Assembly: GCA_031291845.1 (NCBI GenBank)
Contig: JARLIH010000074.1
Span: 1 to 64,000 of the forward strand
Source of the DNA: Isosphaeraceae bacterium
GTDB lineage: Bacteria; Planctomycetota; Planctomycetia; Isosphaerales; Isosphaeraceae
Length of the DNA stretch: 64,000 nucleotides
Direction of reading: 5' to 3'
Below the pieces are notes generated by a model. The model made no database searches. It had not been told where the DNA came from and was given only the letters and a program-made list of their open reading frames with translations. Shown here piece after piece: positions 52,222 through 64,000 of the stretch (the first letter of the stretch is position 1; every line of letters starts with the position of its first letter). The position numbers and the translations under genes are program-made.

Positions 52222-52308
52222 GGAGAGGTGACCGAGAGGCCGAAGGTGCGGCACTGGAAATGCCGTGTACGGTAACACGTACCGCGGGTTCGAATCCCGC
52301 CCTCTCCG
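52222..52308 (+). tRNA. tRNA-Ser (anticodon GGA)
   Basis: The 87-base sequence folds as a class II tRNA. GGAGAGG pairs with CCTCTCC in the acceptor stem, CGGCA/TGCCG encloses the loop CTGGAAA with anticodon GGA, a long variable arm is present as in serine tRNAs, and the T arm reads GCGGG-TTCGAAT-CCCGC. The 3' CCA is not encoded. A tyrosine recombinase gene starts 133 bases downstream, so the 3' end is a likely integration target. Confidence 0.92.
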
Positions 52309-52322
52309 CTCAAAAAAATCAT

Positions 52323-52361
52323 GACCTCGCAAGTCCTTGGTATTGCAGGGTTTGCGAGGTC
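52323..52361. repeat. 10-base inverted repeat between the tRNA and the integrase gene
   Basis: GACCTCGCAA (52323-52332) and TTGCGAGGTC (52352-52361) are perfect complements around 19 bases. Position between the presumed attachment site and the integrase gene suggests recombinase arm-type sites or the tRNA terminator; no T-run is present. Confidence 0.5.
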
Positions 52362-52440
52362 GCTCTATTCTGGGAAATACCCGTTGTGAAACCTTTTGTG
52401 AAAGGCGGGCGGACCACGCTGTAAGGGAGTCGCCGAAGCC

Positions 52441-53808
52441 ATGGCGAAAAAAGCTACCGGACGCGCTACGCATACCGGAAAAACGGATTCGGGACACACA
52501 CGCGACCAGAAGATCGAACGCCTCGGCCCGATAACGATCTACAAGCGAGGCCTCTCCTACTACCTCTATTACCGGGAAGACGGCGCAACTGTGCGGCAGA
52601 AGATCGACGGCAATCTGGCCGTCGCACGCGCCACGGCGGCCAAGGTCGCAGGTGCGCTAGCGGACGGGCGACCCTCGCCGCTCGGTTACCAATCCACGGC
52701 GCCGCACGCGATGGTCGAGGCGTATCTCAACTCGGTCGCCACGGTCCAGAATCTGGCCCTGCGGACGCAGGATCGCTACCGCGCTGCCCTGCAGCGTTTT
52801 TTGGATTTTTGCGAGGTGGCAGACCTGACGGCCCTCGACGCAGTGAACGAGGAAACGATCGAGGAGTTTGTGCGTTGGCTCCGCCAACAGACGCGTACTC
52901 GGAACGGCGCCTCAAAGGGCAAGCGCGCCGCCTACAAGCTCGGCGGGGTGAAGTTCATCCTGAGTACCTGCCGGACGGCATTCCATTGGGCGCGGAAGCG
53001 GCGCATGCTTCCTCCGTACTCGGACAACCCGTTCACGGCCTTCCCCATCGAGAAGCTCCGCGAGCGCGACCAAGATGAAGGCGCGAAGCAGGTGTTCTCG
53101 CCGGACCAGGAGCGGCAGTTTTTCGACGCGTGCTCGGGTTGGCAGCGCGACATCTTCGTCGTTCTGACGACGTATGGCCTGCGGGTGGGCGAGTTGACGC
53201 ACCTTCTGATCGAAGACGTCGACTTCCAGAGTGGCGCGATCGAAATCCGGTCCAAGGCCGAGCTGTTCTGGTCCGTCAAGACGGGACGGCGACGCCAACT
53301 ACCGCTCATTCCCGCGACCCGCACGATCCTGGAACGCTTGATCGGGGATCGGCGGGCCGGGTTTGTTTTTCTGAACGAGGACTTCTTCACGGGGAAAGCC
53401 CAACCAGTCGCGTCGTTCGGCAACCCCGCGGCATTTCGCGGCAAGCTACGGCAAGTCGTTGAAGAGCTGGTCGTCCATCAACCGAACGCTTCAGAGCGCG
53501 ACAAGAGGCGCGCAACGACGGCGTATTGCCGCAAGATGGGCCAGATCCCCGAGAAGCGGATCCGCAACGAGTTCATTGAGATTGCCGCGGCGATTGGGTG
53601 CCCCGAGTACACGAAGGCGCACGACCTGCGGCACCTGTTCGCCAGTCGGGCGCAGGAGGCTGGCACGAATCCGCTGCTGGTGCAGGAAATGCTCGGGCAC
53701 ACGACTCTGGACATGACGAGACGGTACACGCACGTCGGGCTCGACGCGAAACGCGAGGCATTGAGCAAGGTCTCGCCGCCAAACGCGCCGCCGACAAGCA
53801 AGCCGTGA
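52441..53808 (+). CDS. int: Tyrosine recombinase (integrase) of the tRNA-Ser island
   Basis: The 455-aa protein has an N-terminal region with a degenerate arm-binding domain, a core-binding domain (about 85-190) and the catalytic domain (about 215-440). The catalytic residues are all visible: Arg248 in YGLRVGEL, His394 and Arg397 in HDLRHLF, His420 in LGHTTL, and the nucleophile Tyr429 in RRYTHVG. It would insert and excise the element at the 3' end of tRNA-Ser. It starts 133 bases after the tRNA on the same strand. Confidence 0.93.
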   Translation: MAKKATGRATHTGKTDSGHTRDQKIERLGPITIYKRGLSYYLYYREDGATVRQKIDGNLAVARATAAKVAGALADGRPSPLGYQSTAPHAMVEAYLNSVATVQNLALRTQDRYRAALQRFLDFCEVADLTALDAVNEETIEEFVRWLRQQTRTRNGASKGKRAAYKLGGVKFILSTCRTAFHWARKRRMLPPYSDNPFTAFPIEKLRERDQDEGAKQVFSPDQERQFFDACSGWQRDIFVVLTTYGLRVGELTHLLIEDVDFQSGAIEIRSKAELFWSVKTGRRRQLPLIPATRTILERLIGDRRAGFVFLNEDFFTGKAQPVASFGNPAAFRGKLRQVVEELVVHQPNASERDKRRATTAYCRKMGQIPEKRIRNEFIEIAAAIGCPEYTKAHDLRHLFASRAQEAGTNPLLVQEMLGHTTLDMTRRYTHVGLDAKREALSKVSPPNAPPTSKP

Positions 53809-53869
53809 ACCTCATCGCCGTCAATCGGAAAGGTCCAGAGGCCAGGCCAGGCAACGGGCGGAGGTGCTG

Positions 53870-62184: not shown

Positions 62185-62385
62185 ATGCCCGCGCGCGAGC
62201 TTATTCGAACGAGCTTCTTCCTGACGCACGCCCAGCGCGAGCGTCTTAAGTTGATCACCGAGCAAACAGGGTCGCCGCTGTCCTTCCAGCTAAGGCGAGC
62301 CCTGGACATGTATTTCGCCGACCGCGACCCCGGGGCCGGCAACCTGACTCCGGCGCGGGCCGAAGTTCAGGAACAGCAACGATGA
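62185..62385 (+). CDS. Ribbon-helix-helix-like small protein
   Basis: The 66-aa protein has the layout of a MetJ/Arc DNA-binding domain: IRTSFFLTHAQRERLKLITE, then GSPLSFQLRRALDMYFADR. Such proteins are usually repressors or antitoxins. Its stop overlaps the next start (ATGA). Confidence 0.6.
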   Translation: MPARELIRTSFFLTHAQRERLKLITEQTGSPLSFQLRRALDMYFADRDPGAGNLTPARAEVQEQQR

Positions 62386-62750
62386 CGCTCCGAGAAGACG
62401 AGCCGTTTGACGTTGAACCCGGGCAGCCGGATGAGCCTCCTGCGTGCCTGGCCGTCCTCGGCCCAGACGAGGCTTGGCTTGACGATCTGATCCATGAGAC
62501 GGGCATTCCGGACACAAAGGCTTTTGCCTTCGACACCCAACTAGCACGTCGTGTCGGCTCGCTGCTGGAGTCGGAACTTCGGCTCGCGCGAGGTGAGTAC
62601 GCGGCCCATGGCGTGGTGTCTGGGCAGGCGCCGTTTCTGTCGGCCGCGACCCGATTGTTCGAAACTTGCGACCCTGCCCGCTGGCAGCCCGTTACCGACA
62701 TGGAGATCACGGTCGCTGCGGCCAGCAGGACGCACACTAACCACACCTGA
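62382..62750 (+). CDS. Unknown 122-aa acidic protein
   Basis: The start overlaps the RHH-like gene stop by four bases. The product is acidic, MTLREDEPFDVEPGQPDEPP, with helical parts such as WLDDLIHETGIPDTKAF and RRVGSLLESELRLARGEY. No domain is recognised. The coupling to an RHH protein resembles a toxin-antitoxin or paired-regulator layout, which is only a suggestion. Confidence 0.55.
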   Translation: MTLREDEPFDVEPGQPDEPPACLAVLGPDEAWLDDLIHETGIPDTKAFAFDTQLARRVGSLLESELRLARGEYAAHGVVSGQAPFLSAATRLFETCDPARWQPVTDMEITVAAASRTHTNHT

Positions 62751-62938
62751 GCAGTCCGTTCCGCTCGAAGCGAATTCTGCTCCAAGAGGTTCAGGACCCC
62801 GAAACCGCGTAACTCGCCGTACCCAAACCCTCGCCAAGAACGAGGTTAACAACTTACCGTCCGGGGCTCGGCCACGCCGATATCGGACATCCGTCAGCTC
62901 CTACTCGATCCCTGCCACAAACCCTTGCGACTACAGGC

Positions 62939-63601
62939 ATGCCCACACGCACAACAACCCGTCGCCGCGGCCCCACGCCGCCTCTCGAGCTCTCCCAAGC
63001 GAGCAAGCGTGAATATGAGCAGCAACTCCTCATTTGCAACCCCGGCTCCCCGTCCCGTTCCAAGCGCTGGCGTTTTCGACGCGCCGAGGCATTGTTCATG
63101 CTCAACGTCGCCCCAATGCCAACTCGCGACGACTCCTGGGTTCGTCGCGCCGTCAGGTTCCATGCTGACAACTGGAAGCGCAACATGCGACTTCCGGGTA
63201 GCCCCGTCCCCCGGGTAAAGCTCGACTCGGTGATCGCCGCAGCCGCTGACCTTTGGAGCGCGCCCGAGCCCTTCAAGCGTTGGGAAACGGAGGCGCGGTT
63301 GCTGGCCAATCAGGCGTTCGTGGACATAGCAGCTCGGGTCGGGGAGCCCCAGGAGGTGATTGAGGCGTACCATGCCTTATTCTTCGATGTCGCCGACAAG
63401 CGTGAAGCCAAGTCGCGCTGGCCCTATGTCGCGATTGACCTTGGCGCTGACGACGAGTTCCGGGCGCCGGAGTTGCCGGCATCCTGGAAGTTGCTCGCGA
63501 GCGTCGGGTGCCTGCGCGCCTTGGAACTGATGGCGGAAGCCCACCCGGCCGCCGATGTCGTACTCGGAACTGACGGTATCGCGGTTGCGCCCGAAGAGTA
63601 G
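62939..63601 (+). CDS. Unknown 220-aa protein of the island
   Basis: The protein starts MPTRTTTRRRGPTPPLELSQ and is mainly helical, with basic stretches SRSKRWRFRRAEALF and RRAVRFHADNWKRNMR. The second half is acidic. It has no recognisable domain, signal peptide or membrane helix. The basic N-terminus would fit nucleic acid binding. Confidence 0.55.
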   Translation: MPTRTTTRRRGPTPPLELSQASKREYEQQLLICNPGSPSRSKRWRFRRAEALFMLNVAPMPTRDDSWVRRAVRFHADNWKRNMRLPGSPVPRVKLDSVIAAAADLWSAPEPFKRWETEARLLANQAFVDIAARVGEPQEVIEAYHALFFDVADKREAKSRWPYVAIDLGADDEFRAPELPASWKLLASVGCLRALELMAEAHPAADVVLGTDGIAVAPEE

Positions 63602-63827
63602 CCCGACGCGCTGTGGCTCAGCGGCAAACCGCTCTCCAAGTCGTGAGCCGATATGCATCTCAAGACACTGTTGCGACTGTTTCGGGCCAGGCTCACCGCA
63701 GCATCCAGACCGGAGCCTGAGCCGGCGAGGGTATCTAAAATTAACAAAAAGTTGGGAGTATTTACAGGCAAGCTCCCCGACCGCAATGTTTGGGGCAATG
63801 CCGGCGGCGTAGGCCAAGGACCGGGCC

Positions 63828-64000
63828 GTGGGGTGGGAGTTCAGAGGAAGTCGGCGGTACTTTTACCGGACTATCCGTGTACCTGGAGTCCGTAACCCGG
63901 TCAAGCAGTATCTGGGTCACGGTGGCTCGGCCGAGATCGCGGCCTGCCTTCACGCCGAACGCCTGGTCAAAAGCCAGGCCGAGCGCCAGGCGCTTCGAGC
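63828..64000 (+). CDS. Small planctomycete mobile-element protein, cut by the right edge
   Basis: From a GTG at 63828, preceded by AAGGA, the frame reads M-GWEFRGSRRYFYRTIRV and NPVKQYLGHGGSAEIAACL, continuing open to base 64000 with ERLVKSQAERQAL. It resembles the short 'GWERRxxRRYYYR...KEYxG' proteins that I know from planctomycete genomes, often near mobile or defence genes. Its function is not established. The C-terminal part lies outside the window. Confidence 0.65.
   Translation, partial: MGWEFRGSRRYFYRTIRVPGVRNPVKQYLGHGGSAEIAACLHAERLVKSQAERQALR

Follow-up and report, generated by a model that had tools for sequence, protein, structure and literature searches.

A probable phage-satellite-like, compact integrative element at tRNA-Ser(GGA) of an Isosphaeraceae bacterium and its probable place in a planctomycete island family

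What kind of element follows the tRNA-Ser(GGA) gene of an Isosphaeraceae bacterium, and does it have relatives? The window analysed here comprises positions 1–64,000 of contig JARLIH010000074.1 (contig C409 of the source genome, G000), which is 76,437 bp long and was examined to its end; the source assembly is 9.7 Mb in size and fragmented, with an estimated contamination of 9.2%. We use 'tRNA-Ser island' for the element beside tRNA-Ser(GGA) in the source genome, 'G' numbers for the genomes compared and 'L' numbers for loci. The sequence is almost certainly an integrated mobile island and very likely belongs to an undescribed family of Planctomycetia tRNA islands. The reading that we favour as the probable one is that of a compact tyrosine-recombinase integrative element, similar to phage satellites and belonging to a family of planctomycete islands marked by two adjacent genes, orf108 and orf181.

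Integrase and target site

The tRNA-Ser(GGA) gene is separated by 132 bp from a tyrosine integrase whose catalytic set is complete (R248, H394-x-x-R397, H420 and Y429). Both the tRNA and the full R-H-R-H-Y signature had been claimed in an initial annotation, and both are confirmed; supporting searches are listed with these features:

52222..52309, + strand: tRNA-Ser(GGA), the integration target (ARAGORN; Rfam RF00005), with a 3′ end that is the presumed attL core of the island
52384..52403, + strand: tandem TTGTGAAA-N4-TTGTGAAA, candidate integrase arm-type sites (pattern rarity, alignment)
52441..53808, + strand: tyrosine integrase, 455 aa (PF00589, 1.6e-22; phrog_1, 7.5e-49)

The equivalent site is empty in G120, the sole congener compared with the source genome. 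Synteny holds there for tRNA-Ser(GGA) and for the FMN-binding gene upstream of it (68% identity), and neither an integrase nor a primase follows. The comparison with a relative lacking the island, as the initial annotation had proposed, thus shows that these genes are not fixed at this locus.

A member of another genus of the same family, G064, carries a decayed integrase copy beside its own tRNA-Ser(GGA), at an equal distance and with 55% identity over 110 residues; the remnant runs into a different downstream gene. A second G064 contig contains a tRNA 3′ end, an arm pair and integrase remnants. Because a decayed relative of the enzyme adjoins the same tRNA in G064, we conclude on sequence grounds that the island integrase targets tRNA-Ser(GGA). 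A more distant homologue (32% identity) in G040 is preceded by a 20-bp tRNA-Ser-like 3′ end. Searches of IMG/VR with the integrase and the primase gave no relatives.

Across 45 family genomes, the pattern TTGTGAAA-N2-5-TTGTGAAA has three occurrences, one at the source site and two in G064, all of them at tRNA-Ser(GGA)/integrase att sites. A control pattern read backwards gave one match across the same 45 genomes. On G064 contig C237, the pair is found on the opposite side of the tRNA 3′ end, as would be predicted for an attR-type arm. The TTGTGAAA pairs are therefore likely to be integrase arm sites, and the motif, together with the marker genes described below, makes the island family searchable.

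Gene content of the tRNA-Ser island

All genes of the island lie on the + strand, as the initial annotation had stated. The remaining features are:

53864..54940, + strand: orphan orf358 (no match in Pfam, PHROGs, NCBIfam or PADLOC)
55656..55880, + strand: HTH_17/excisionase-family protein, putative Xis (PF12728, 1.8e-16; TIGR01764, 3.1e-12; phrog_66, 1.6e-11)
56100..57233, + strand: orphan orf377 (no significant match in Pfam, PHROG or NCBIfam)
57276..59285, + strand: primase with Prim-Pol domain, CHC2-like zinc stretch and TOPRIM-like C-terminus (PF09250, 1e-8; motifs read from the sequence)
59282..60589, + strand: AAA_25 (RepA/DnaB-type) helicase (PF13481, 6.6e-20)
60600..60648, + strand: 21-bp perfect inverted repeat with a 7-nt loop, possible terminator downstream of the primase/helicase pair (repeat search)
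60793..61233, + strand: HIRAN-domain protein (PF08797, 6.5e-13)
61453..62028, + strand: orphan orf191 (no match in Pfam, PHROG, NCBIfam or PADLOC)
62185..62385, + strand: ribbon-helix-helix (RHH_3) protein (PF12651, 3e-4, weak, just below the curated cut-off)
62382..62750, + strand: orphan orf122 (no match)
62939..63601, + strand: orf220, first gene of a conserved planctomycete set and a database orphan (~14 homologous loci)
63828..64154, + strand: orf108, paired with orf181 and running past the window end at 64000
64126..64671 of the contig, outside the window: orf181, after orf108
64697..65248 of the contig, outside the window: orf183, after orf181
~65079..66617 of the contig, outside the window: IS701-like insertion (DDE_5 transposase, terminal repeats TTCTACAGCGCTAACT, CTAA target duplication)

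The matches support most of the functions that had been read from the sequence, namely an excisionase-like HTH protein, a primase fusion, a RepA-like ATPase and a HIRAN protein. The weak match of the predicted RHH protein is backed by a homologue in G100 that lies directly upstream of orf220–orf108–orf181. The description of orf377 as DUF3102-like is not supported, as Pfam gave no DUF3102 match at E 0.1 and neither PHROG nor NCBIfam lent support; BLASTP likewise finds no similarity between orf377 and its positional counterpart in G140. No convincing gene is present in 54,941–55,655. The tRNA is the only Rfam match, PADLOC detects no defence system within the island, and an iteron search returned short two-copy repeats and no array.

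Capsid, terminase, portal, relaxase and FtsK families are absent from 52,310–66,900 in Pfam, PHROG and NCBIfam scans, so that the reported lack of capsid, terminase and transfer genes also holds for the genes past the window, as far as the insertion sequence (IS).

The orf220–orf108–orf181 set and its bounded relatives

The distal part of the island contains the genes that connect it to other planctomycete loci. A homologue of orf181 is present in 55 of 249 Planctomycetia genomes, and in a phylum-wide draw of 294 genomes all six matches fell within this class and none outside it. In most of these loci orf108 and orf181 are adjacent, and orf220 precedes the pair in ~14; in G012 the order is primase, orf220, orf108, orf181. 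The set is without database names: orf220 has no confident Pfam or PDB match, and PDB profile searches with the three proteins gave nothing useful. The conservation and context of orf108–orf181 in relatives indicate that the last genes belong with the tRNA-Ser island, where the pair also lies near the distal end. The element is thus not contained in the window, since its conserved gene set continues to at least 64,671.

Two relatives are bounded by direct repeats. In G020, the 3′ half of tRNA-Val(GAC) recurs as an identical 44-bp sequence at a distance of 9.4 kb. Between the two repeats lie genes for an integrase, an HTH protein, DUF1580 and a DNA polymerase of family A, together with orf108, orf181 and the gene of an HTH protein that weakly resembles TerS; another weak TerS-like HTH protein is encoded at locus L204. 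In G104, an identical 48-bp stretch of tRNA-Pro(GGG) is found again after 16.7 kb; this interval holds genes for an integrase, DUF1580, a helicase and a primase, orf108, orf181, a gene for a ParE-like protein and, between orf181 and attR, genes of a type I restriction-modification system. Among the scanned genes of these two elements, from which some small ORFs were left out, there are no transfer genes and, beyond the weak TerS-like match, no structural genes. At tRNA-Val(CAC), G136 repeats this layout, and a calcineurin/double-GTPase cluster follows orf108–orf181.

Replication modules differ among the orf108–orf181 islands, comprising Prim-Pol/AAA_25, DNA polymerase A or helicase/primase. 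A broader proposal, which we put forward tentatively, is a class-wide planctomycete family of phage satellites that share orf220–orf108–orf181, exchange their replication modules and keep a bay for defence cargo next to attR. In the literature searched, which included few subscription journals, no planctomycete element of this kind is described, and there is little on mobile elements or satellites in Planctomycetota generally. If real, a bounded, recurrent family with its own marker genes and type I restriction cargo would make gene transfer and phage defence more accessible to study in this phylum, for which genetic tools are scarce.

A second orf108/orf181 copy occurs in the source genome (L193, G000:C309), near a replication-initiator-like gene; a long protein at this locus resembles a tape measure by eye and has no PHROG match.

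Replication module

The primase stop and helicase start codons overlap (ATGA, with the helicase ATG at 59282), suggesting that the pair is probably translated together. Primase homologues are present in 86 of 298 Planctomycetia genomes, and residues 561–660 match a PADLOC RTasDnaG-like profile (1.6e-5). Homologues of the AAA_25 helicase (39–49% identity) adjoin primases or are fused with them, and at two loci in metagenome-assembled genomes AAA_25 directly precedes orf108–orf181. PDB profile searches with the replication proteins returned nothing useful.

Comparison with known systems and proposed mechanism

In a working definition, satellites have an integrase between att repeats, a length of 7–20 kb, regulation and replication functions and no structural genes (PMC13376191). 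With its right end missing, the tRNA-Ser island can only be estimated to span ~12–14 kb; with that proviso its gene content agrees with the definition, and the element resembles phage satellites (PICI, P4-like, PICMI) in length and in having an integrase, a regulator and a replication module. Its bounded relatives add tRNA-type att repeats and no identified structural genes. Unlike phage satellites, the tRNA-Ser island has no recognised packaging or capsid-interference gene and no TerS-like protein, its attR is missing, and its gene set is planctomycete-specific.

Actinomycete integrative and conjugative elements (AICEs) use Prim-Pol replication at tRNA sites and require FtsK-type transfer (PMC3218068). 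The tRNA-Ser island shares with them a tyrosine integrase at a tRNA 3′ end, an Xis-like protein and a Prim-Pol module. It differs in lacking an FtsK/SpoIIIE transfer protein, and in the partner of Prim-Pol, which is AAA_25 in the island and RepAM or RepPP in AICEs. Neither the FtsK-type translocase of an AICE nor the relaxase expected of other integrative conjugative or mobilizable elements was found. The suggested likeness to a phage satellite or integrative plasmid is supported at the level of gene content.

In the mechanism that we propose, the integrase would recombine the tRNA-Ser 3′ core with the TTGTGAAA pair bound as arm sites, and the HTH_17 protein would direct excision. The Prim-Pol/TOPRIM-like primase and the AAA_25 helicase would then copy the excised circle, a role suggested by their domain content, as is the replication competence proposed in the initial annotation, and orf220–orf108–orf181 would serve an element-specific function. 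As the island has no particle or conjugation genes of its own, transfer would most likely depend on a helper. This would probably be a phage, as it is for satellites, which are packaged in helper particles (PMC11389934). A satellite lifestyle of the tRNA-Ser island is a serious possibility that falls somewhat short of probable.

The right end and the state of this copy

Several observations weigh against the reading of a compact satellite-like element. No packaging-redirection gene is recognised in the tRNA-Ser island. No attR copy of at least 20 bp (2 mismatches) exists in the source assembly other than a tRNA-Ser(GCT) gene, and no second TTGTGAAA arm pair was found there. The break in downstream synteny with G120, whose downstream gene has its source-genome orthologue on contig C2 in non-syntenic surroundings, means that the empty site does not fix the right boundary. 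Finally, in G164, another genome of the source family, a 39-kb contig that is probably a plasmid (G164:C3, L189) carries two orf181 homologues, so that this gene also occurs outside tRNA islands.

Of the 50 kb downstream that had been proposed for the attR search, the contig provides 24 kb from the tRNA to its end at 76,437, and no attR is found in it. Direct repeats at both ends are thus absent for this element; as the assembly is fragmented, attR may sit in a gap. The layout of the G020 element would place the right end ~1 kb past orf181, which is where the IS lies. Beyond the IS are a TPR gene and a gene for a giant PKD protein, and this arrangement of TPR and giant surface-protein genes recurs in G172 without mobile genes, which weakly favours loss of the right end. 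With an IS just past the last gene and neither attR nor a second arm pair, the copy is probably fixed in place, or else the element extends beyond the contig; both fit. Of the integrated mobile island originally described, integration therefore stands, and current mobility of this copy is unlikely because its excision looks impaired.

Alternative explanations

The island could be a remnant prophage. It would then represent the early half, for integration and replication, of a temperate phage of planctomycetes, with the late genes either deleted or situated past the contig end. Relatives of the AAA_25 helicase (39–47% identity) occur on viral contigs that also encode terminase and portal proteins (such as IMG/VR L150 and L155) and in a Singulisphaera acidiphila prophage (L135) with major head and tape-measure proteins. 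The replication module is therefore shared with temperate phages, which also speaks for the favoured satellite-like reading, and the missing right end fits a prophage as well. However, these phages carry terminase, portal or head genes and the tRNA-Ser island does not. The genes that it has all appear intact rather than decayed, orf108–orf181 is distal in bounded relatives without identified structural genes, and an IMG/VR scan confirmed no orf181 relative. We consider a prophage origin unlikely.

A larger cargo island, in which the element would run on through the IS and the TPR/PKD genes and end beyond the contig, as cargo-bearing relatives suggest, is distinctly improbable. The G104 element does carry its restriction-modification genes between orf181 and attR, G136 shows no attR in the 34 kb next to its tRNA, and none appears by the end of the source contig. 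Against this, the occurrence of the TPR and giant surface-protein genes without mobile genes in G172 suggests resumed chromosome, and the IS occupies the position expected for attR.

Slightly more doubtful still is an integrative plasmid-like replicon moving by conjugative mobilisation or natural transformation rather than by phage. The Prim-Pol modules of tRNA-integrated AICEs (PMC3218068) and the orf181 homologues on the 39-kb contig would agree with such a replicon; the scanned genes include no FtsK/SpoIIIE translocase or relaxase.

That ordinary chromosomal genes happen to follow a tRNA is practically untenable: GC content differs only mildly between island and flank (0.63 vs 0.656) and does not mark the ends clearly, but the genes are absent from the G120 site, their distribution is patchy, and the integrase and att evidence speaks against it.

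Further loci

In the source genome, ~2 kb (50176–52221) separate the tRNA from the FMN-binding gene, vs 485 bp in G120; the longer interval contains a 266-aa orphan on the − strand.

Copies of the tRNA-Ser(GGA) 5′ half, truncated within or close to the anticodon arm, are found at L112:17942–17985, L128:9920–9965, L129:8825–8866 and source contig C332:14809–14858. In G068, a 44-bp 5′-half copy lies ~32 kb from the full gene. The 5′-half copies in G068, G104 and G060 each precede a different integrase-like gene (PF00589 in G068 and G104), apparently representing a second island class on tRNA-Ser(GGA) with reversed polarity.

At L107 (G172:C196), a 68-bp 3′-half copy (3069–3136) and the full tRNA-Ser(GGA) gene (16674–16761) are 13.6 kb apart. 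The 3′-half copy is perhaps an old attR; no integrase lies between the two, and the locus was therefore rejected as a comparable element.

In a record titled Bacteroidales (L140), identical 44-bp tRNA-Met att repeats flank 13.2 kb that include an integrase, a planctomycete-type AAA_25 protein and a head maturation protease; this record is possibly misbinned.

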